DNA of 64,000 bases from Undibacterium parvum. GTDB lineage: Bacteria > Pseudomonadota > Gammaproteobacteria > Burkholderiales > Burkholderiaceae_D. The notes under the pieces are model-generated. The model did not search any database. It saw nothing but the letters and a program-made list of their open reading frames with translations, and was not told where the DNA came from. The DNA lies in assembly GCF_003955735.1 (NCBI RefSeq), contig NZ_CP034464.1, positions 310,001 through 374,000 of the forward strand, given 5' to 3'. Both the position numbers and the translations under genes were made by a program. Below are positions 792 through 29,250 of the stretch, piece by piece; the first letter of the stretch is position 1; each line of letters begins with the position of its first letter.

Positions 792-2687
792 TTACTGAAT
801 AGTCGCGACCAAACTTGCCCCATTCACAGCTGCATAGGCTTTCAATAATAGGTAATAGGTCCCAGCAGCGGGAGAATTTATCGTTACGGTTTCAGCGTTA
901 GTCGATCCATCTGACTTACCGTCGTAGACTGTGCTGCTAGCTGCTGAACCAAGTTTTACATACAAATCGCCGTCGCCACTACCTCCTGACAATTTAAAAG
1001 TCAAACTAGACTTACCAGCGGGCACCACGATAGTGTAGGTTTTGCTTGCATTGAGCGCCAGCGAGATTCCACTAACAGCAGTCCCGCTACACAAGACCGT
1101 TGCCGAAGGTGTGCAGCCAGGTGGTGGTGTCGTGCTTGAGTAGCTAGCCACTATCGAAGCACCACTCACCGCTGCATAGGCGTTTGCCAGCAAATGGTAG
1201 GTGCCAGCAGTTGGCGCTGCAATCAAGATACTCTCTGCATTGCTAGAGCCGTCAGATTTCGCGAGATACGAGCTAGTACTAGGCGCAGTAGCTAGTTGCG
1301 TGTAAAGATCGCCATCGCCACTACCACCGGACATTTTGAAGCTTAGATTGCTAGCACCTGCGGGTACGGCGAAGGTATATTTCGCTTGATCACCGGCCGC
1401 ACCAGAAAAACTTACCGCAACATCCTTAGTCAAAACACCTGGTGGTGGAGTAACAACCGCGCCATCACTACCCAGTTCCACCGCATACGCCATCGCCATA
1501 CGCGCGAACTTAAGCGCCCCCAAAGCTTGGCTACCTGAATTGGCGTAAGTGTCGTTTGCGGTATGGATGTAGGGATTATCCTGATTTATCAAAGACTCAA
1601 ACGGCATAGAGGCAGGATAGCCTTGTGCAGTCCAGGATGCATGATCAGAACAGGCATAGCCACAAACATCGTTACCCACGGTCAAACTTGGCAAATAAGT
1701 GGAGATTAAGTTTGCTACGAAGCTGTTTTGCGCCGCGTTGGTATAGTCGGTGTACAGATAGATATCTTTCGCCGAGCCCTTGTAATTGGTCATATCCAAC
1801 TGCATAACACCAACCACATTGACATTATCGGCTTTAAATTTAGCAGCGATTTCTGCCGATCCTTTCAGCCCCACCTCTTCCGCCGAATATCCGATAAATT
1901 TCAAAGTGCGTCGTGGTTTATAGTTATTCGCCAGCATAACGCGGATCACCTCGGTCAAACTGGCAATTCCAGAGGCATCATCATCGGCTCCCGGCGCCTT
2001 GGCTGCCTCAGACCTGTCATTCAAATTAATAGAATCAAGGTGACCGCCCAGCACCACGACTTCAGACGCGTTATCTGTACCTTGTATCGTCAAAATGACA
2101 GATTTTTGCGCCCATCCTGTATGCGTGAATTGTTCAACCAAGATATCACTGCGCGCAGCACTCATTTGCTGCCACTTGGTTTTGAGCCAATTGGAGGCAT
2201 TCACACCATTGGTGGTGGTGTAATAGCGATTGGGAAAAGCCGACATATCGACGATGGTTTGCCCTATATTACTGTCTTGCATCTGCGTTAAATACGGAGT
2301 GACGGTGGCTTGATTATCGATCACATACGAGGGAGCAAGTAAGCTCATCATCTGCATAGGCTGCATCAAAGCAGCACGACCGCTGGCCTCGCTGGTATGC
2401 GACATAAAACCACCGCAACGATTCAATTTATGGTGTATCGCACCTGACAGACTTAACATTAGCGACTCGTCGACCTGCACCAGATGCACTTTTTCCTGAG
2501 CCAGGATGCCTGGAGCACCGGACAGCAGCACTTTGCTCTGTTTCGCGATGGTCTTTGGCGCTAACTTCTGCAACTCTGCATAAGCGGCATCGCCCAGAGT
2601 GATCCAGACTTTATCTGCAGCATATAGATTTGTAGCGCCCATAGAAAAGACACCTAAGAGCAAGCTAGTAATTAATTTCTTTTGCAT
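792..2687 (-). CDS. Secreted M28 family zinc aminopeptidase with two PPC domains
   Basis: Predicted secreted di-zinc leucyl-type aminopeptidase (M28, Vibrio AAP-like). I chose the ATG at 2687 (631 aa) over the upstream ATG at 2726 because it has a GGGAG ribosome-binding site and starts directly with a signal peptide (MQKKLITSLLLGVFSMG, cleavage near AYA/AD). The M28 ligand set is visible: His216 and Asp218 (GGHLDS), Asp235 (GADDDASG), Glu270/271 (SAEEVGLKGS), Asp298 (QLDMT) and His349 (CSDHASW). Two beta-sandwich PPC (pre-peptidase C-terminal) domains follow, about residues 418-520 and 535-631; they are usually removed during maturation. The PPC pair is nearly the same as that of the neighbouring M4 peptidase. 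Export probably uses Sec plus type II secretion (inference from gspG next door). Confidence 0.92.
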   Translation of the reverse strand: MQKKLITSLLLGVFSMGATNLYAADKVWITLGDAAYAELQKLAPKTIAKQSKVLLSGAPGILAQEKVHLVQVDESLMLSLSGAIHHKLNRCGGFMSHTSEASGRAALMQPMQMMSLLAPSYVIDNQATVTPYLTQMQDSNIGQTIVDMSAFPNRYYTTTNGVNASNWLKTKWQQMSAARSDILVEQFTHTGWAQKSVILTIQGTDNASEVVVLGGHLDSINLNDRSEAAKAPGADDDASGIASLTEVIRVMLANNYKPRRTLKFIGYSAEEVGLKGSAEIAAKFKADNVNVVGVMQLDMTNYKGSAKDIYLYTDYTNAAQNSFVANLISTYLPSLTVGNDVCGYACSDHASWTAQGYPASMPFESLINQDNPYIHTANDTYANSGSQALGALKFARMAMAYAVELGSDGAVVTPPPGVLTKDVAVSFSGAAGDQAKYTFAVPAGASNLSFKMSGGSGDGDLYTQLATAPSTSSYLAKSDGSSNAESILIAAPTAGTYHLLANAYAAVSGASIVASYSSTTPPPGCTPSATVLCSGTAVSGISLALNASKTYTIVVPAGKSSLTFKLSGGSGDGDLYVKLGSAASSTVYDGKSDGSTNAETVTINSPAAGTYYLLLKAYAAVNGASLVATIQ

Positions 2688-2753
2688 GAAAATCTCCCGC
2701 CCAGACATGCACAAACATGTGGGCAAAAATAAAATTGAAACCTCGAAATGAAA

Positions 2754-2783
2754 AAAGCCTCCCTCAAAAACAGAGAGAGGCTT
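2754..2783 (-). terminator. Rho-independent terminator after the M4 peptidase gene
   Basis: A stem of about 11 bp (2755-2765 with 2773-2783, core AGCCTC/GAGGCT) is followed on the minus strand by a T-run (TTTTT). It lies 20 bases after the stop of the M4 gene and separates its transcript from the M28 gene. Confidence 0.8.
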
Positions 2784-2803
2784 ACCAATTAAGGATCAGG
2801 AAA

Positions 2804-5502
<2,699 letters not shown>

Positions 5503-7767
5503 TCAAACCAAGCGCAATGGCAAGCTACGCAAACGTTTTCCTGTTAGCTTAAAGATAGCATTTGCCACCGCTGGTGCAATTGGTGGCACGCCGGGCTCAC
5601 CTATCCCTTCTGGCGATTCGGCACTTTTTATGATGACAGTCTCGATGACAGGTGTTTCGTTCATGCGCAAGGCTGGGTAATCATGGTAATTGCTTTGTTC
5701 CACTTGCCCGTTTTTAATGGTGATCTCACCGTATAAAGCGGCGGTAAGTCCAAAAATAACGGCAGATTCGATTTGCTGGGCGATGATATTTGGATTAACG
5801 GCAATCCCGCAGTCGACCGCGCAAGTCACTTTATGCACCCGAATTTGATTATCTTGAATCGAGACCTCGGCTACTTCGGCAACTATCGTGCCGAAGGACT
5901 GGTGTAAGGCCACACCTAATGCGCGCCCAACTGGCGGCTGCCCAGCTCGCGCCACCGCAGCATCGAGCACCGCCAGATGACGCGGGTGCTTAGTTAATAA
6001 TTCACGGCGAAACAGCACCGCATCTTTACCGGCAGCGTGCGCCAATTCATCAATGAAACTCTCTTTGAAAAAAGCATTATGTGAATGACCGACTGAGCGC
6101 CAGAAGCCAAGCGGCACCGGGGTAGGCACAATCACATGAGAAATTTTCTGATGCTCAAACTCATAAGGCATATCGAACTCGCCCTCGGCCGTAGTCTTAT
6201 CCGGCCCCGCCCCCATCAAGCCAAAAGTGCGTTTCAACACTTGGTGGGTAATCGATCCACTTGCCGATTTATTCTCATAGCCGGTCACCTTGCCACTCGC
6301 ATCCAGCGCTGCGCTAAAACGCGCCACAGCGGCGGGTCTATACATATCATGCGACATGTCTTCTTCCCGGCTCCAGATTATTTGAACAGCCGCGCCTTTA
6401 GTCTGCATTGCGATAGCCACCGCTTGCAGCACCATATCGACCTCCAGCCTACGTCCAAAACCACCGCCTAGATAGCTCATGTGCAAATTCACATCTTCAG
6501 TCTTGATGTTGGCTACTTTGGCAGCCACACCCACGGCAACACTAGGCACCTGCGTCGACACCCAGAGATCTAACTTACCGTCCTTAAATTGCGCAGTGCA
6601 ATTAATAGGTTCCATAGCGGCATGTGCCAGAAACGGTGCGCGGTATTCGGCTTTGAGTAGTTTGCCAGAATTGGCCGCCAAAGCCGCCGCCGGATCGCCT
6701 AGCTGATAATAGGTAAAGCCAGATTCGCTATCGAGCTTCTCTCTGAGTTCTTTATAAATAGCCTCACTCGAGAGCGTCGCGTTAGCACCGGCATCCCAAG
6801 TGATGGGCAATGCCGCCAAAGCCTGCTTAGCCGACCAATACGATTTGGCGACCACGGCGACTCCGACCACACCAACCTCGCCTACCGCTTGCGAAAAATC
6901 GACGACCTGCACCACATCGCGCATATTTTTAATTGCATCGGCATCGATTTTTTTGATTTTCCCGCCTATGCTAGGGCTCATTTTTATGGCCGCATACAGC
7001 ATGCCAGGCACACGCGCATCGATCCCAAATTGGGCTGTGCCATTCACCTTGCCGGCAATGTCGGTACGCGCTTGCGCAGTACCTATCAGCTTAAAATCCT
7101 TAGCTTGCTTCAAGCGAATTTCGCGCGGCTCGCTGCCTGCCGCCTTGGCTGCCAGATCGCCATAATTGGCGCTTTTACCCGAGGGGTGCGAGACCACGCC
7201 TTCGCTGACACGACATTCGGCAGCCGGTACGCCCCATTCTTTGGCGGCGGTATTGACCAACATGGCGCGCGCGGTGGCACCAGCTTCGCGCAGTGGTATC
7301 CAGGCATCCTTGACGCTAGAAGAACCACCGGTGATCTGCAAACCTAATTCACGCGCCAATTTTGAAGTCAACCATTGCGCGGTCTTTTTCAAACTACCTT
7401 GATCGTCGCTATGAAACGGCAGGCCATCGGCCATCATGGAGACATTGCCGTAAATTTTATCGATAGGGGCATGCATTGCTTTGACCTTAAGCATAGACAC
7501 ATCAAGCTCCTCGGCCACCAACATCTGTAAAGCCGTATGTATGCCCTGCCCCATCTCACTTCTATGCATGGCGACCGTGACCGTGCCATCCTTAGCGATC
7601 TTAATCCAGCCATTCAAGGCCACCTCGCCCTCAGTAATTTGCAAGGGACTAGCGCCTTGCAAACGCTGGCGTGGCGGCATCACGCCCCAACCAACTACCA
7701 AGGCACCGGCGACACTTAAACCACCTAAGATAAAACGGCGGCGCGAGCTGTTTTTTGCTGCTGTCAT
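5503..7767 (-). CDS. Xanthine dehydrogenase-family molybdopterin-binding (large) subunit, isoquinoline oxidoreductase beta-like
   Basis: Large catalytic subunit (754 aa) of a molybdenum hydroxylase of the IorB/aldehyde dehydrogenase type, oxidising an N-heterocycle or aldehyde at a Mo-cytosine dinucleotide centre. A twin-arginine signal is visible at the N terminus (SRRRFILGGLSVAGALVVG), so the enzyme is probably exported folded to the periplasm. Seen motifs: GGGFGRRLEVDM in the cofactor domain, FWRSVGHSHNAFFKES, and GIGEPGVPPIAPA near the C terminus with the catalytic Glu of GEPG. A GGAGA ribosome-binding site precedes the ATG. Oddity: these enzymes need a small 2Fe-2S subunit (IorA), normally encoded directly upstream; here the upstream gene is a DUF1289 protein and no 2Fe-2S subunit occurs in the window. 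The substrate cannot be told. Confidence 0.88.
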   Translation of the reverse strand: MTAAKNSSRRRFILGGLSVAGALVVGWGVMPPRQRLQGASPLQITEGEVALNGWIKIAKDGTVTVAMHRSEMGQGIHTALQMLVAEELDVSMLKVKAMHAPIDKIYGNVSMMADGLPFHSDDQGSLKKTAQWLTSKLARELGLQITGGSSSVKDAWIPLREAGATARAMLVNTAAKEWGVPAAECRVSEGVVSHPSGKSANYGDLAAKAAGSEPREIRLKQAKDFKLIGTAQARTDIAGKVNGTAQFGIDARVPGMLYAAIKMSPSIGGKIKKIDADAIKNMRDVVQVVDFSQAVGEVGVVGVAVVAKSYWSAKQALAALPITWDAGANATLSSEAIYKELREKLDSESGFTYYQLGDPAAALAANSGKLLKAEYRAPFLAHAAMEPINCTAQFKDGKLDLWVSTQVPSVAVGVAAKVANIKTEDVNLHMSYLGGGFGRRLEVDMVLQAVAIAMQTKGAAVQIIWSREEDMSHDMYRPAAVARFSAALDASGKVTGYENKSASGSITHQVLKRTFGLMGAGPDKTTAEGEFDMPYEFEHQKISHVIVPTPVPLGFWRSVGHSHNAFFKESFIDELAHAAGKDAVLFRRELLTKHPRHLAVLDAAVARAGQPPVGRALGVALHQSFGTIVAEVAEVSIQDNQIRVHKVTCAVDCGIAVNPNIIAQQIESAVIFGLTAALYGEITIKNGQVEQSNYHDYPALRMNETPVIETVIIKSAESPEGIGEPGVPPIAPAVANAIFKLTGKRLRSLPLRLV

Positions 7768-22246: not shown

Positions 22247-22301
22247 GCCAGTGGCTTAGCGCGCGGGGCGGCGGTTTGCGTTGGCGCTTTGAATTTAGCC
22301 A
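22247..22301 (-). other. Possible degenerate attC site after cassette 4
   Basis: GTGGCT and AGCCAC form the ends of an imperfect inverted repeat of about 52 bases directly after the cassette 4 stop codon, with GCGC-rich inner arms. The canonical GTTRRRY/RYYYAAC core sequences are not intact, so this is a weak call. Confidence 0.3.
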
Positions 22302-22786
22302 CCGTCGGAACTGCGCCTCTGCAATGACTGCTTAGGGTACTGGCGCCACCGCCAAACCCCATAGAAAACCAGTGCACCCACTACGCCATGCAGCGCAAAG
22401 AGCGCCACTCCCTCTGCATAGGTGAACCACGCATAAGCAGTCGGCACACCATCAACATAAGTTTCGATGTACTTGCCATGCCAGTTCTGCCCGGCCGAGT
22501 AGCCATCAAGACGACTAGGCCAAGAGGTCGCAGCGGATAAGGCACCAAGCACAAAACCGACTATGCCAAGTGAACGCCAACTATCGCGACGAAGTTTTCG
22601 CAGCGCCAAAAATGCAGGAACACCAAGTACTAGTACTAGCGTCGCACTGACAGCCACCACCGCGAACAGCACGAAGCCAATACCGTAATGCGACTGGGGA
22701 GACGAGAGATAGTCGGGCAACATGCGCAAGAGAAGCAACATGGGCTGAGCAGCCACCGCTGCGATTGCAGAAATCCAGATGTTCAT
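22295..22786 (-). CDS. Integron cassette 4: hypothetical membrane protein
   Basis: Unrecognised inner-membrane protein of 163 aa. The ATG at 22786 is chosen because it lies just after the attC end of the preceding cassette, the normal arrangement of cassette genes; a longer frame starting at 22861 would run across the attC site and is unlikely. Four hydrophobic segments are seen: MNIWISAIAAVAAQPMLLLL, the stretch around GIGFVLFAVVAVSATLVLVL, SLGIVGFVLGALSAA, and ALFALHGVVGALVFYGVW. Between the third and fourth there is a polar loop with WPSRLDGYSAGQNWHGKYIE. No function can be assigned. Confidence 0.65.
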   Translation of the reverse strand: MNIWISAIAAVAAQPMLLLLRMLPDYLSSPQSHYGIGFVLFAVVAVSATLVLVLGVPAFLALRKLRRDSWRSLGIVGFVLGALSAATSWPSRLDGYSAGQNWHGKYIETYVDGVPTAYAWFTYAEGVALFALHGVVGALVFYGVWRWRQYPKQSLQRRSSDGG

Positions 22787-22789
22787 GTG

Positions 22790-22847
22790 GGTTAACGTTT
22801 GACATGATGGGCGCCGCAAGGCGTCCCGCTTGATGGATGGGTTAGGT
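22790..22847 (-). other. attC recombination site 3
   Basis: On the minus strand the 58-bp site starts ACCTAAC and ends CGTTAACC. Between them is a hairpin (GGGACGCC-TTGC-GGCGCCC) with short unpaired positions. The stop codon of cassette 3 lies inside the first core, as usual in integron cassettes. Confidence 0.8.
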
Positions 22848-23273
22848 GCCCTGATAAGCACCTACCGAACAATTTGTTGGTCTTGTTGAATTCCATATTT
22901 CAATTAGAAGAGGTTTTGCATGTTTGTGCCAATACTCTATTTTCTTTTTATCTCTGCCCTCAATTTCACCCTTTAACAAATTGCAATTTTCAATATTAAA
23001 ACTGGCATCAATGTTTGGCGACTTTACATGAAAGTGCGGTGGTGGGTGTTCATCTGGGTAAATTTCTATTTTAAGTCCATTTACTTTAGCTACAAGCTGC
23101 TTAATTTCAATTAGAAACATTTCTCCATTTTCTTCCCATACATTGCATGGGTTATGAAGAATTGCCTCTAGCCAAGCAGCAAAATCATCAAATGATTTTA
23201 ATTGCTCAGGTTCGACATTATGAAACCAAGGTGTTTTTTTTAATTCTTCAACTGACATTTCGGAGAATTTCAT
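22842..23273 (-). CDS. Integron cassette 3: DUF4160-like protein
   Basis: Protein of 143 aa. The N-terminal half (MSVEELKKTPWFHNVEPEQL) is not recognised. The C-terminal half matches the DUF4160 pattern: HPPPHFHVKSPNIDASFNIE, then NLLKGEIEGR and a W-H-K-H segment ending LLIEIWN. DUF4160 proteins are small, of unknown function, and often sit in mobile or toxin-antitoxin-like settings. The ATG at 23273 is chosen; a GTG nine bases upstream lies inside the attC core. The gene is AT-rich compared with the chromosomal neighbours, a sign of transfer. Confidence 0.75.
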   Translation of the reverse strand: MKFSEMSVEELKKTPWFHNVEPEQLKSFDDFAAWLEAILHNPCNVWEENGEMFLIEIKQLVAKVNGLKIEIYPDEHPPPHFHVKSPNIDASFNIENCNLLKGEIEGRDKKKIEYWHKHAKPLLIEIWNSTRPTNCSVGAYQGT

Positions 23274-23280
23274 AAATTGC

Positions 23281-23349
23281 ACCTAACGTTTGAGATGAGA
23301 GGCGGCGCCCGGCTTGCCGGGTGACGTCCTCTCGATTGAAGGGTTAGGC
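23281..23349 (-). other. attC recombination site 2
   Basis: On the minus strand the 69-bp site starts GCCTAAC and ends CGTTAGGT, exact matches to the attC core consensus. The inside folds as GAGAGG/CCTCTC and CCCGGC/GCCGGG arms with offset bulges, the classic single-strand attC hairpin. The TAA stop of cassette 2 lies in the first core. Confidence 0.92.
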
Positions 23350-23748
23350 CTCAGATTTCGCATGAGTACTTTGCGCGGCAATTGCATTTTTTAGCAGAGC
23401 CAAAACTGAAGGTGAGGCGACCTGCGCGAGGGTACTGATTTTGACGTGACGAAGGGATTTGCCAGTTCCTTCAAGGAGTACTGCGGGATCGGAAAGCGAG
23501 GTTCCGCGGTAGAAGCCCAAATTTGTGTGCTTCGCTTGGATGCCTATATATGCATAGTGATCAAGCATCTTTCGAGGACCAAAGCCGTAGCTGACGATGC
23601 CTTGCTTTGGCCAAGCAAGCATGTAGGCACCTGGGTGCACGCTTAGGATTTTCTGATGAAGCGCCTCGACTATTGGGCGTTGCTCTTCGGAAGCAAGTGC
23701 GAACACGGCTTCAAAGGAACTAAGCGTTGGATTTTTTGAGGCAGCCAT
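23344..23748 (-). CDS. Integron cassette 2: DUF1801 domain-containing protein
   Basis: Protein of 134 aa of the DUF1801 (YdhG-like) family, small single-domain proteins of unknown biochemical role. Seen: VEALHQKILSVHPGAYMLAW near the N terminus, the KQGIVSYGFGPRKML strand pair, YAYIGIQAKHTNLGFYRG and GTGKSLRHVKI, all typical of DUF1801. The ATG lies a few bases after the upstream attC core (GTTAGGCCTCAGAAAATG), with no separate ribosome-binding site beyond GGCCTCAGAAA. Its stop codon is inside the downstream attC. Function unknown; DUF1801 genes are common integron cassettes in my recollection. Confidence 0.85.
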   Translation of the reverse strand: MAASKNPTLSSFEAVFALASEEQRPIVEALHQKILSVHPGAYMLAWPKQGIVSYGFGPRKMLDHYAYIGIQAKHTNLGFYRGTSLSDPAVLLEGTGKSLRHVKISTLAQVASPSVLALLKNAIAAQSTHAKSEA

Positions 23749-23756
23749 TTTCTGAG

Positions 23757-23847
23757 GCCTAACGCCGAAATGACGAGATCGCCACGACGGTCATAAATTT
23801 ATGCGAAATAGTCATTGGCGATTCTCCGTCGATTGACCTGTTAAGGC
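23757..23847 (-). other. attC recombination site 1
   Basis: On the minus strand the 91-bp site starts CCTTAAC and ends CGTTAGGC. Inner arms GACGGAGAATCGCCA and TGGCGATCTCGTC pair with extrahelical bases. The TAG stop of cassette 1 touches the first core. Confidence 0.85.
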
Positions 23848-24155
23848 TAGTCCTCGGATTCATCTTTAACCTGAATGCTTCCATAGGTGTCCACCAATAA
23901 GAATAATAATGCAAAAAATACAGCTCCACTGATGGATATGCGTAGAACAAAACCAGGCCACCAATCTGTACCAGCAACGCCATACACAAATGGATAAATA
24001 ATAAAATCTGCGAAAGTTGAGAGCACAAACGCACAAATAAATAGACCAGTTGTTTTACATTTCAAAGCAACGGAGCAGGAACTACAAACAAAATTTTCGC
24101 TAACCTTCAGCGCATTAATACGTACCCCGCACTTGGGACATGCAAGTGACATCAT
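23847..24155 (-). CDS. Integron cassette 1: zinc-ribbon membrane protein
   Basis: Protein of 102 aa (or 101 if the second of two adjacent ATGs is used). The N terminus is a zinc ribbon: CPKCG at about residues 6-10 and CSSC at about 24-27. Two hydrophobic segments follow (TGLFICAFVLSTFADFIIY and ISISGAVFFALLFLLV) and the tail is acidic. A related layout is seen in other small bacterial membrane proteins, but no named family is recognised. A GTTAAGGC core a few bases upstream marks the cassette boundary. Confidence 0.7.
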   Translation of the reverse strand: MMSLACPKCGVRINALKVSENFVCSSCSVALKCKTTGLFICAFVLSTFADFIIYPFVYGVAGTDWWPGFVLRISISGAVFFALLFLLVDTYGSIQVKDESED

Positions 24156-24212
24156 GAGCCTTAACGTGTTTTAATTTTCATTTTGCAATATTAACCGAGC
24201 GTGTTAAAAAAG
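24156..24212 (-). other. Upstream cassette boundary (attC/attI remnant)
   Basis: On the minus strand the sequence ends CGTTAAGGC just before the start of cassette 1, as an attC or attI end would. TTAACACG about 45 bases further upstream could be the partner core, but the stem is poor. No integron integrase gene is present anywhere in the window. Confidence 0.4.
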
Positions 24213-24370
24213 ACAATTTGTTTCAAGTACCTTGAAACCCGCGTGGATATTGACTAAATCTGGTTATACTGACTATTTATACAGTTGAACAAAATCGACA
24301 AAAACATCACTTTAACGCAGCAAGGTGCGATCGTAGCTTTGCATGAAATTTCATAAGCATCCCTGCCACC

Positions 24371-24429
24371 GCGCATATTCCATGTGCTTCTGCAAGCACA
24401 CTAGCCTGTAGACCGCATGGGATATGCGC
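24371..24429. repeat. Hairpin repeat, family H, copy 3
   Basis: Arms GCGCATATTCCATGTG and CCGCATGGGATATGCGC (24413-24429) pair around a 26-base loop. It forms the outer edge of the large inverted-repeat element that follows. Confidence 0.75.
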
Positions 24430-24496
24430 GCTGGCGGCATGCGTTTTTTTGCTTTGCTGTGGCTTGGTCTTGTTTTTACTTCTGTCGTAGCTGTGC

Positions 24497-25115
24497 GATT
24501 GCTGGCCGGTGGTAGACCGGCGGCTACTTCCTTTTCTTGCTTCGCCAAGAAAAGTAAGCAAAAGAAGGCGACGCAAAGTCGCTGCCCTGCGGGTACCCGC
24601 CTGTGCAGGTCAAAAAATGGGGAATGAAGCAAACTCGCTACGCTCAGACAGCTTCATTCCTAATCCATTTTCTGCCATGCACAAGCGGCAGCGCCACATG
24701 CGAAAGGCGAAGGTCAACACATCCGTAGCGCGACTGCCGTTTCTCTACACACGCATTGCCCAGGCACGTCGCGCTACGGCAATCCGGTGCTTTTGACTTG
24801 GCTTTTGACTTGGCTTTTGACCTGGCTTTTGACCTGGCTTTTGACCTGGCTTTTGACCTGGCTTTTGACCTGGTTTTTGAATTAGTTTTTGACTTTGCTT
24901 TTGACTCGAATTCGCATGTGGCGCTGCCAATTGTGCGGGGCGGAAAATGGATTAGAAGTGAAGCTGTCTGAGCGCAGCGAGTTTGCTTCATTTCCCATTT
25001 TACGACCTGCACAATTGGGTATCCCGCAGGGACAGCGACTTTGCGTCGCCTTCTTTTGCTTACTCTTCTTGGCGAAGCAAGAAAAGTAAGTAGCCGCCGG
25101 TCTACCACCGGCCGG
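24497..25115. repeat. Large inverted-repeat element with 12-bp tandem repeat core
   Basis: Arms of about 205 bases at 24497-24704 and 24908-25115 are inverted copies with high identity by eye (shared GGTAGACCGGCGGCTACTT, CTTGCTTCGCCAAGAA, GAAGGCGACGCAAAGTCGCTG, CTCAGACAGCTTCA). The spacer holds a perfect 12-bp hairpin (CCGTAGCGCGAC with GTCGCGCTACGG) and a tandem array (24791-24910). Open frames across it (for example 24644-25189 minus, a Ser-Lys-Ala-Arg repeat) are caused by the repeat and are not called genes. The whole 24213-25236 gap has no supported CDS. Confidence 0.8.
24791..24910. repeat. 12-bp tandem repeat array (GCTTTTGACCTG)
   Basis: About nine to ten copies of a 12-base unit; the central five are identical (GCTTTTGACCTG) and the edge copies diverge (ACTTG, AATTA, ACTTT variants). 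The unit length is a multiple of three, so it keeps frames open on both strands. Confidence 0.9.
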
Positions 25116-25236
25116 CAATCGAAAAACAACGACGGAAGTAAAACACCTGCACGCCAGAAAAATGCAAGGGACAGGTATCGAGAATGCAAGGGCGATACTG
25201 AGTCACGGCCCTATTTCACGTCCCTATCTTAAGCCC

Positions 25237-26187
25237 CTATTGTGAGATTAGCTTCGCGACCTCGATTGCTGGCAATACGCCCGCATATTGGGGAATGCCG
25301 TTTTTATCGAGCTTGGCGACGTGGATCTTCCACTCCATTTTTTTATCCTTATCCACCATCAATTCCAGCGCCCAACCCGTCTGTGAATCTTCCGTGTGAA
25401 AGCCATTGAATATGAAATTTCCCAGACTGTAAAATATCGGCTTGTTTTGGTAGATCTCGATATTTTGCGTCACATGCGGGTGACCGCCAACAACCGCGTC
25501 TGCGCCCGCCTCTATCATCAAATGAGCCAATTGAATCTGACGTGGTGAGGCCATTTTTTCATGCTCCCAACCCCAATGCGGATAGACAATCACAATATCG
25601 GCCTTATGCGTAGTCTTGGCGGCACGAATATCAAACACGATCTGATCATCATCGGCCCACGCCACGCCTGGCCGGTCTTCCAAGGCTTCAAAGCTACGAG
25701 GAAAAAAATCATCATAGGCCAAAATAGCAATGCGCACGCCCTTAACTTCGCTCACATAAGGCGCATGCGCAGCACGGACATCGCGCCCTCCGCCAAAATA
25801 AGGAATCCCTTTTTTCTCTAACAAATCCATCATCTTGCCAAAGGCAGCAGGACCATAATCACCAGTGTGATTATTCGCCAAGGACACCGCATTAAAATGC
25901 TGCTTGATGGTCGATAACACGCGCGGATGCGCCTGAAAGGTAAACGGTTTTGTTTCGCGTTTGCCGGTATTACCGACGCTGCATTCCAAATTACCGAAAC
26001 GCAGATCAGCTTGCGAAAACTGGGCCTCAAACGCCGCAAAAGGGTTTTTGCCTTGTTTAATGAGCTGCCCTGGCAACTCATCGACCATCAGATCGCCGAC
26101 AAATAACAGCTTGACAGCGGTCTGCTGGGCATGCGCGGAAGCGGCAAAAATAAGTGCCGCGATGAACGCAAAATAAGACTTATTCAT
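25237..26187 (-). CDS. CapA family protein (poly-gamma-glutamate capsule-type metallophosphatase fold)
   Basis: Secreted or periplasmic protein of 316 aa with a CapA/PGA_cap calcineurin-like fold. The start at 26187 is chosen for its AAGGAGC ribosome-binding site and the signal peptide MNKSYFAFIAALIFAASAHA. Metal-binding motifs seen: FVGDLMVDE, FGNLECSVGN, SLANNHTGDYG, AILAYDDFFP, YPHWGWEHE and VVGGHPHVTQ, then YSLGNFIFNG. In Bacillus CapA takes part in poly-gamma-glutamate synthesis; most proteobacterial relatives have no defined role. The start overlaps the stop of the upstream secreted protein by four bases (ATGA), so the two are translationally coupled. Confidence 0.88.
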   Translation of the reverse strand: MNKSYFAFIAALIFAASAHAQQTAVKLLFVGDLMVDELPGQLIKQGKNPFAAFEAQFSQADLRFGNLECSVGNTGKRETKPFTFQAHPRVLSTIKQHFNAVSLANNHTGDYGPAAFGKMMDLLEKKGIPYFGGGRDVRAAHAPYVSEVKGVRIAILAYDDFFPRSFEALEDRPGVAWADDDQIVFDIRAAKTTHKADIVIVYPHWGWEHEKMASPRQIQLAHLMIEAGADAVVGGHPHVTQNIEIYQNKPIFYSLGNFIFNGFHTEDSQTGWALELMVDKDKKMEWKIHVAKLDKNGIPQYAGVLPAIEVAKLISQ

Positions 26188-26885: not shown

Positions 26886-28451
26886 TTAACAAGGCAGCGG
26901 TAGCAGTTCATCAATCCGGCTGTTTGGATGCGTCGGTAATTTTTCGAGTGTGCCTTTAAGCCATGCCAAAGGTTCTATGCCATTGGCTTTCGCGGTGGCG
27001 AGCAGGCTTTGAATGGCGGCAGCTTGTCGGCCTGCTCGTTCAGAACCGGCGAAGAGCCAGTTCTTTTTGCCAATGGCAATAGGGCGAATGGCGTTTTCAA
27101 TCGGATTATTGTCGATTGGCAGATGACCGCTATTGGCGTAGCGTTCAATCGCGCTCCAGCGTTTGAGGCTGTAGTCGATGGCTTTGGCGAGACTGCTGCC
27201 ATCGGCGCTCTGTTGGCGTGTGTGAATCAGCCAGGCATGCATCGCTTTGAGTTCTGGCAGCGCCTGTGTAGCACGTCGTTGTTGTCGTTGTTCGATACTG
27301 TCGCCTTTACCCTCGGCCTCAATGTGATACAGCTTTGCAATGCGTGTAAGTGCCTCATTGGCAATCGGATGCCCATTGGCGGCGTGCAGGTCGAAGAATT
27401 TGCGACGGGCGTGCGCCAGGCAGGCCAGTTCGGTGATGCCCAGCGCGAACAGGGCTTTGTAGCCGGCATAATCATCCACCATAAGATGGCCTTGCCAATG
27501 CCGCAGAAACGCGCGCGCATGACTGCCACTGCGTCCGGTTTGGAAATCGAACACGATGATGGCAGGCTGGTCTTCTAAGGCATTGCTGCGATATGCCCAT
27601 AGATAGGCACGCTTGGTCTTACCATTGCCGGGGTCGAGCAGCGGCACCGGGGTTTCATCGGCATGCAGCACTCGTCCTTGCTTGAGTATTTCTGCCAACC
27701 GGTCACTGAGCGGTTGCAGGGCGACGCCAATCCGTCCTACCCACTCGGCCAGTGTGGAGCGGGCAATGCCAACACCGTGTCGACTGCTGATTTGCTCAAT
27801 CCGATACAGTGGTAAGTGATCGAGATATTTTTGAATTACCACCCATGCCAATAATCCTGGTGCCGCCAGACTACGATCGATCACTGCCGGGGGAATGGCT
27901 GCTGCGGTGACTGTCTCACAAGCGCGACAGGCGTATTGAGGGCGAATATGCCGATGCACAAAGAAGCGTGCTGGTTCGACGTCGAGTTGTTCACTGATGT
28001 CTTCACCGATCTTGATCAGGTCTTTGCCGCATTGAGCGCAGGTGCAGCTTTCTGGCTCATGACGATGTTCAATGCGCGGCAGTTCCGCTGGCAGTGGCCT
28101 ACGTCCGGTAGGGCTTGGCTTACGTGGTGTTGTCGCTGAAGATAATTGGGCAAGCTCGGCCTGCATCGCAGCCAGGTCGCTTTGTTCGCACTCTAAAAAC
28201 AGGTCGCGTTGTTGTACCGTAAACGCTTCGGCTTTTGCGCTGAATTTGAGACGTTTGTGATACGCCAGTTCTAAAGTCAAGGCTTGAATTTTGCATTCTT
28301 TGACGTGAAGATCGTGCTCCTTGCGACGTAATTGATCCTGCAAAGCAGCCTTCTCCGCCTGTGCCAGTCCGGCCCCATTCAACTGCGCCATCACCCATTG
28401 AGTCAGTGCGGGGTCAGCGTTGAATTGGGCGAGTTTGGTGGCGATATCCAT
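26886..28451 (-). CDS. tnpC: IS66 family transposase TnpC
   Basis: DDE-type transposase of IS66, 521 aa, full length. Order: N-terminal helical region with coiled-coil character (residues 1-90), a zinc-finger segment (CTCAQCGKDL and YACRACETV), then the catalytic core with LHADETPVPLLDPGN (first Asp), HLMVDDYAGYKALF (second Asp), LACLAHARRKFFDLH, and the C-terminal NNPIENAIRPIAIGKKNW (catalytic Glu) with FAGSERAGRQAAAIQSLL. It is the last gene of the element; it ends 44 bases from the left end. Confidence 0.96.
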   Translation of the reverse strand: MDIATKLAQFNADPALTQWVMAQLNGAGLAQAEKAALQDQLRRKEHDLHVKECKIQALTLELAYHKRLKFSAKAEAFTVQQRDLFLECEQSDLAAMQAELAQLSSATTPRKPSPTGRRPLPAELPRIEHRHEPESCTCAQCGKDLIKIGEDISEQLDVEPARFFVHRHIRPQYACRACETVTAAAIPPAVIDRSLAAPGLLAWVVIQKYLDHLPLYRIEQISSRHGVGIARSTLAEWVGRIGVALQPLSDRLAEILKQGRVLHADETPVPLLDPGNGKTKRAYLWAYRSNALEDQPAIIVFDFQTGRSGSHARAFLRHWQGHLMVDDYAGYKALFALGITELACLAHARRKFFDLHAANGHPIANEALTRIAKLYHIEAEGKGDSIEQRQQRRATQALPELKAMHAWLIHTRQQSADGSSLAKAIDYSLKRWSAIERYANSGHLPIDNNPIENAIRPIAIGKKNWLFAGSERAGRQAAAIQSLLATAKANGIEPLAWLKGTLEKLPTHPNSRIDELLPLPC

Positions 28452-28504
28452 GCACGAAAGTATACCTCGCCCGACCGAAAGTTAACAGGGGGAGGCATCC
28501 CTTT

Positions 28505-28852
28505 TTATACGCGCCAATTCGATTGTGGCGACGCATTAAGTCGGGGCCAGTCAACGCCCGTGGTGAGCCATTGCCATTCTTCGTTCGACAAGACACACGC
28601 CGCATCATGGCTCTGCGGCCAGACGAAGCGAGCTTTGTGCAAGCGTCGCATACATAACCAAACACCGGTGCCATCCCAGATCAATAGCTTGATGCGGGTG
28701 CTATTCTTGTTACGAAATGCATAGGCACTGCCATCGCAAGGTGGCTTACCCAAACTTTCTTGTACATGCAGGGAAAGTCCGTCAACACCGCTGCGCATAT
28801 CGATCGGTTCGACAGCGAGATACACCTGTGCCGGAGTCAGTGGCAGGCTCAT
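28505..28852 (-). CDS. tnpB: IS66 family accessory protein TnpB (Orf2)
   Basis: 115 aa, the IS66 Orf2-like protein needed for transposition of this family, exact role unknown. The typical motif set is visible: QVYLAVEPIDMRSGVDGLSL near the start, then AYAFRNKNSTRIKLLIWDG, GVWLCMRRLHKARFVWP and a C-terminal LTTGVDWPRL. It overlaps the end of tnpA by four bases (ATGA), a translationally coupled pair. Confidence 0.95.
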   Translation of the reverse strand: MSLPLTPAQVYLAVEPIDMRSGVDGLSLHVQESLGKPPCDGSAYAFRNKNSTRIKLLIWDGTGVWLCMRRLHKARFVWPQSHDAACVLSNEEWQWLTTGVDWPRLNASPQSNWRV

Positions 28853-29250
28853 GGTAGTTGCCGCAGCAATTGCGCCAACACGGGTAAGTCAACATGGTTA
28901 GAAATAGTCACCTGCCAACCGGCCGGGCTGCACAAGACAATCTCGGGAAGTGATGCCCTGATCGACACCGGCACCAACTTGCAAGGCTTCATGGCTGGCC
29001 GCGGCGATGTCGATGCGATTGTCGTGAGGGAGGTGTGCTTAGCTTGAGAAACTACTGACGATTTTACAGCGGGTGTGGCAAGTGTGACGCTTTGATCAAT
29101 AACGATGGAAGCGAGGCGTTTGCGCCAGGTATAAAACGTGGAGTAGCCGATGGCTTCACGTCGACAATACGCGCTCAGTGATAAGCCGCTCTCAGCCCAG
29201 TGCTGCTGATGCTTAGTCCAAAACGCCACTTTGAGAGGATTGAAATTCAT
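28849..29250 (-). CDS. tnpA: IS66 family accessory protein TnpA (Orf1)
   Basis: 133 aa, first gene of the element, with an N-terminal helix-turn-helix region of the IS66 TnpA type: KVAFWTKHQQHWAESGLSL, SAYCRREAIGYSTFYTWRKR. The C-terminal part ends with PEIVLCSPAGWQVTISNHVD and a short Leu-rich tail as in relatives. Probably binds the element ends. Starts 78 bases inside the right end. Confidence 0.93.
   Translation of the reverse strand: MNFNPLKVAFWTKHQQHWAESGLSLSAYCRREAIGYSTFYTWRKRLASIVIDQSVTLATPAVKSSVVSQAKHTSLTTIASTSPRPAMKPCKLVPVSIRASLPEIVLCSPAGWQVTISNHVDLPVLAQLLRQLP

Follow-up and report, generated by a model that had tools for sequence, protein, structure and literature searches.

A cassette array in Undibacterium parvum that very probably descends from a chromosomal integron stripped of its integrase gene

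The window, by which we mean the whole 64,000-base stretch analysed here (G000:C1:310001-374000), contains a compact array of gene cassettes in which three attC sites lie within 1.1 kb and four open reading frames, A to D, occupy the minus strand, as do the attC sites. Before the first cassette, the array adjoins a stretch homologous to the attI of intact integrons in congeners, and this homology continues into what appears to be the very beginning of an integron integrase gene. The features are listed below in the order in which the cassettes are read, with window coordinates and with bit scores from the covariance model R1 described further on.

24294-24310, plus strand: intI stub without its start codon, five to six codons or about 17 bases long; from alignment with the attI-intI regions of G015 and G010
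24269-24284, no strand given: putative LexA-like box, CTG-N10-CAG, common to G015 and G010 upstream of intact intI
24188-24216, minus strand: candidate cassette promoter, TTGTCT-17-TAATAT, weak; by eye, below the scan threshold
24158-24310, minus strand: attI remnant; by homology to congener attI that immediately precedes an intact intI
24158-24165, minus strand: attI/cassette core, GTTAAGGC; from core comparisons
23847-24155, minus strand: cassette A gene, 102 aa, no family over cut-off
23757-23847, minus strand: attC of cassette A, 24.0 bits
23344-23748, minus strand: cassette B gene, 134 aa, DUF1801 (28.4 bits, cut-off 27.2)
23281-23349, minus strand: attC of cassette B, the middle site, 52.4 bits
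22842-23282, minus strand: cassette C gene, 146 aa, DUF4160 by family scan
22790-22847, minus strand: attC of cassette C, 20.9 bits, R' core degenerate
22295-22786, minus strand: cassette D gene, 163 aa, no family, homologue in Ideonella azotifigens
22291-22337 (about), minus strand: degraded attC of cassette D; by-eye alignment with an Ideonella cassette attC (34.0 bits)

An earlier note on this DNA had proposed three attC sites with folded inner arms, lying between genes whose stop codons fall in the attC cores, and had named a covariance-model search as the check. Rfam, searched at its gathering thresholds, gave no match in the window and thus supplied no attC model, and a core-and-fold script caught only the middle site of the three, along with other candidates; we therefore made a covariance model of our own (R1). 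Its candidates were drawn from stretches beside integron integrases in 20 order-mates, of which 19 yielded attC candidates with the same script, and the final model was built from 27 attC sites in 13 of the 20 integron loci, the window sites not being included, with the structure assigned by hand. In the alignment used, of which one of the 27 rows is misaligned, 87.9% of cells pair, compared with 75.1% in shuffles, and 75 cells carry double changes, compared with 27.1 in shuffles; another alignment was discarded for its badly placed gaps. Over the 64,000 bases of the window at E<=10, R1 returned three matches, all on the minus strand, with E-values (rough ones, according to the search tool itself) of 1.6e-11 for the attC of cassette B, 3.8e-4 for that of cassette A and 2.5e-3 for that of cassette C. 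The ends of all three matches coincide exactly with the attC coordinates of the earlier note, whose three sites in one orientation thus withstood the check it had named, run here with our own model.

Its further claims on these sites stood in part. Folded as single-stranded DNA, the middle attC reaches -19.5 kcal/mol on the bottom strand (z -4.96 against shuffles) and -13.6 kcal/mol on the top strand (z -2.69). For the other two sites, the bottom-strand z-scores are -0.93 and -0.54, and those of the top strand -1.03 and -1.05. Folding is clearly better than in shuffles for one of the three sites, such that the inner arms described earlier are plain in the middle attC, while for the other two no clear gain over shuffles is seen. 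Two genes, with their ends at 23344 and 22842, do have a stop codon in an attC core (R''), but the stop codon of the first gene, at 23847, overlaps its site at the edge only.

Circular cassettes are expected to have an R'' core that pairs with their own 5' core. In cassettes A, B and C alike, R'' is complementary to that core at every position (8/8, 7/7 and 7/7), compared with 6/8, 6/7 and 4/7 for the R' core found in situ, which is owned by the next cassette. The same preference appears in 50 neighbouring attC pairs from four other integron loci, where the own core is perfectly complementary in 36 and the in-situ core in 9. Judged by their core letters, the three cassettes of the window agree with the expectation for circular cassettes.

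These observations bear on whether the sites might be nothing but chance inverted repeats between ordinary genes. Such a reading could draw on the low scores of two sites (20.9 and 24.0 bits), on their shuffle-like folding, and on comparable weak matches elsewhere in the genome: a genome-wide R1 search at E<=10, in which the best 150 of 1453 candidates were scored, gave at least nine matches, two of them inside the array, and the 24.0-bit site is absent among the matches listed, presumably having been dropped at first look. It would leave unexplained three sites of the same orientation in 1.1 kb, a middle site with an E-value of 1.6e-11, own-core complementarity in three of three cassettes, and an adjoining attI. 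The middle attC and the attI together refute it in practice, and we assign it next to no probability.

The cassette genes differ widely in GC content (0.42, 0.52, 0.37 and 0.55 for A to D). The protein of cassette C has a weak likeness to the toxin DhiT (37.6 bits, cut-off 100), and a scan of A to D against a defence library gave nothing. When the proteins of A, B and C were used to search plasmids, distant homologues of C were found in four records and of B in two, with no homologue of A. The scan made with the protein of cassette D confirmed a single relative, a homologue in Ideonella azotifigens (72%, residues 1-156) whose gene lies between attC sites of 42.5 and 34.0 bits. The homology between the two crosses the stop codon into the second Ideonella attC, ending, by eye, at its R' core, and for this reason we regard D as a genuine cassette whose attC, at about 22291-22337, is degraded, with its R' core lost and no match by R1. 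The attC before the Ideonella gene (L195, 4024-4092) closely resembles the hairpin of the middle window attC, again by eye.

The attI remnant matches the attI of G015 at 77.6% over 156 nt and that of G010 at 74.8% over 155 nt. Both belong, with G009, to the congener integrons that have a whole IntI frame beside a homologous attI, and by this homology an attI would lie beside the first cassette of the window. The intI stub, about 17 bases long, is weak on its own and counts as the continuation of the attI alignment. As to the putative LexA-like box, LexA control of intI is described as common among integrons in a passage of PMC3108266. The terminator scan picked out a palindrome within the attI, GTTTCAAG-GTA-CTTGAAAC at 24220-24238. 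A promoter within the attI, the candidate for which is listed above, may drive transcription of cassette A; the promoter scan itself gave 4 promoter-like sites, against 3.6 in shuffles.

The cassette side of the attI is marked by a core which the earlier note had taken for a fourth boundary before the first gene; the core exists, at 24158-24165, as the junction of attI and cassette and not as a mere boundary. In the alignment, the conserved attI end reads GCAAAATGAAAATTAAAwCACG|TT. Across 28 attI-like sites, most of the sequences are closely alike to the left of G|TT, and to the right they vary with the cassette, as recombination between attI and attC predicts. A copy of cassette A in G024 is 85% identical to that of the window, with homology that begins at CGTTAAGG and unrelated sequence upstream, which identifies the fourth core as a recombination boundary; R1 recognised no attC behind this copy.

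The absence of an integrase from the window, as previously claimed, was confirmed by tblastn with the intact IntI of G015 and G016, which gave no match at E<=0.01 and leaves the stub of about 17 bases as all that remains of the gene. This absence extends to the whole genome. The integron integrase model TIGR02249 had no match over its cut-off of 265 in the 4.91 Mb, one-contig genome, and the best of seven weak stretches reached 81.8 bits. Xer-type models give the better score for each of the five frames behind these seven matches. One frame is XerD (379.7 bits, cut-off 329.6; the whole protein scores 129.1 with TIGR02249), one is best described as XerC and falls just below cut-off (330.9 versus 335.15), and the remaining three fit Xer-type models better than TIGR02249 while staying under all cut-offs.

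Two or more neighbouring attC sites of like orientation, genes between them and no integron integrase nearby make the array a CALIN (a cluster of attC sites lacking an integrase) by the usual definition. The earlier assignment, a CALIN carrying four genes, is supported on this count, although it overlooked the attI, the intI stub and the fourth, degraded attC. Of the parts of a complete integron, the attI beside the first cassette is present and the intI gene is reduced to about 17 bases; the locus differs from other CALINs in that it retains an attI, a putative SOS-type box and the intI 5' end, making its origin readable. According to a passage of PMC9024848, IntegronFinder does not detect attI outside class 1 integrons.

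CALINs have been proposed to arise in three ways: by off-target insertion, by rearrangement, or when a recognisable intI is lost (a passage of PMC8618304). Because both the integration site and the start of intI appear to survive, this CALIN can be assigned to integrase loss, which is most likely its origin in preference to off-target insertion: the retained attI and intI start point to an integron minus its integrase and not to a free-standing cluster of attC sites. A rival reading, in which an integrase acting from elsewhere placed the cassettes at a secondary, attG-like site that had never been an attI, can draw on the lack of an integron integrase in the genome and on cassette A in G024: this copy follows unrelated sequence that does not resemble an attI, so that cassettes of its kind could be placed in such a way. 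Since 150 bases of attI homology, complete with LexA-like box and intI bases, immediately precede the array, we consider this reading highly improbable. In our reading, the array is very probably a chromosomal integron whose integrase gene was deleted, an assignment made from homology and weighed down by an attI homology of only 75-78% and by the two of three attC sites that fold no better than shuffles. Cassettes A to D would have been acquired by IntI-mediated recombination between attI and attC, and intI would later have been lost by a deletion that ended after codon five or six, with repeat DNA now lying beyond. From then on, the order of the cassettes would have been frozen in cis, though the array might still be worked in trans by an incoming integrase that recognises its attI.

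A second locus of the same genome raises the matter of copying. L196 (5582-6284, that is G000:C1:297581-298283), 36 kb away, has an attI stub with the intI breakpoint of the window, sharing 268 nt at 92.5% including that breakpoint, and a different gene behind it, an open reading frame of about 114 codons followed by a 16.3-bit attC. Given this near-identical stub, the one in the window may have been copied from an integron that was already broken, and more generally the attI stub and array could be a duplicate or fragment of an integron elsewhere that lost its integrase before or during copying. A block of 12.5 kb around the array that is without mismatch to G014 outside a repeat might be taken in the same sense. 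However, the genome contains no integron integrase anywhere that could mark a source, and the L196 copy has lost its core and is not the better original; we regard an origin by copying as quite unlikely, and prefer deletion of the integrase gene.

The surroundings call for caution in the use of G014. Apart from about 24325-25500, window 15486-28008 matches it without a single mismatch; identity in the neighbouring DNA is 75-86%, and so G014 is not an independent witness. Both edges of the identity coincide with stretches missing in G014, and the block is either a very recent transfer or an assembly chimera; its conservation as a sign of selection was rejected. The G014 copy of the block ends inside transposase genes at window 26886-29250, which we take to be IS66-like. 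Close to the stub, window 24341-25147 is a dispersed repeat, in which inverted arms of ~233 nt (90% alike) surround a short tandem array, and which has many copies in its own genome and in congeners. As a cause of the deletion it was set aside, for it starts near the break but is too frequent in the genome for nearness to prove much. Among 43 genomes of the genus, the neighbouring DUF2868 gene has matches in only 3 and the PGA_cap gene in 33, and these counts established no empty site.

In the same 43 genomes (our own included), IntI scores over cut-off in 12, attC matches at E<=0.1 occur in 33 (with stricter filters applied in scoring), and matches to the window attI in 22. From 69 rows of the attI search, 28 loci were picked by hand, mostly by score, with L208 and L212 taken for their known nearby attC; they hold 28 attI-like sites that reach the core, L209, L213, L214 and L215 yielding none. 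Twenty of the 28 sites have an attC in the same orientation within 1.5 kb downstream (the nearest at 20 bits or more in 16 of these 20), three have one upstream in the same orientation, and none has one in the opposite orientation if a single 12.7-bit row is set aside. That row, a partial match on the opposite strand of a counted attC, was one of two weak L161 rows excluded, the other being a 12.3-bit row on the same strand. A whole IntI frame stands beside this attI family in three of the examined loci, and eight have an N-terminal piece only, reaching codon 24 to 142, a form of remnant that searching through attI favours; an intI search across the genus also turned up pieces from other parts of the gene, C-terminal in G022 (260-315) and internal in G007 (82-201).

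In the genome of the window, where the count is unpicked, there are seven attI-like sites including that of the window, and four of the seven have a correctly oriented downstream attC within 1.5 kb, although one of these attC reaches only 16.3 bits and some of the seven cores are damaged. The orphan attI-like sites around the array are an unusual surplus. Elsewhere in the same genome, a GNAT acetyltransferase gene ends at a 41.8-bit attC (L089, 6462-7520), a third attI stub with about 14 intI codons precedes an open reading frame without family (L089, 9991-10612), and single attC sites occur at L091 (6913-7420), L092 (6736-7498) and L197 (6152-6671), one of them after a glyoxalase-like gene (below the Pfam cut-off) and two behind short attI cores. 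The L208 locus of G011 (2143-6409) has three attI cores within 3.4 kb. Behind every core lies an attC of its own, and a gene for a REP-associated tyrosine transposase separates the second core from the third. Large attC clusters were seen at G012:C1:463526-484092 and G001:C11:396571-410699, both in congeners without IntI over cut-off.

In a large survey, CALINs numbered 2961 against 2760 complete integrons (a passage of PMC9024848). Decay of chromosomal integrons has been described in Xanthomonas, where a passage of PMC12444791 reports a progressive loss of integrase activity; there, intI lies downstream of ilvD with two exceptions, whereas the attI-like sites described here are scattered, with seven in a single genome. 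Pieces of attI away from intI are also found in the deltaattI-type cassettes of class 1 and 2 integrons (PMC12901181, in the portion consulted), but those pieces replace the attC downstream of a gene, while here, at most of the examined sites, attI cores stand upstream of a gene that has its own attC. Our literature searches found no report of multiple, orphan or duplicated attI in integrons under those wordings, and none linking integron, Oxalobacteraceae and attC.

In conclusion, the element is of a known type, and its origin by integrase loss is still readable. Since integrases that are intact, truncated or vanished all occur in the genus beside one recognisable attI family, the decay of the integrase can be traced step by step. 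A bolder suggestion, doubtful though worth stating, is that attI sites have multiplied and scattered across the genus apart from any integrase. If so, the genome would be a set of distributed docking sites, each with its own first-cassette position, which a visiting integrase of this type could fill or shuffle in trans. With several orphan attI sites per genome, their use by an integrase arriving in trans becomes testable.
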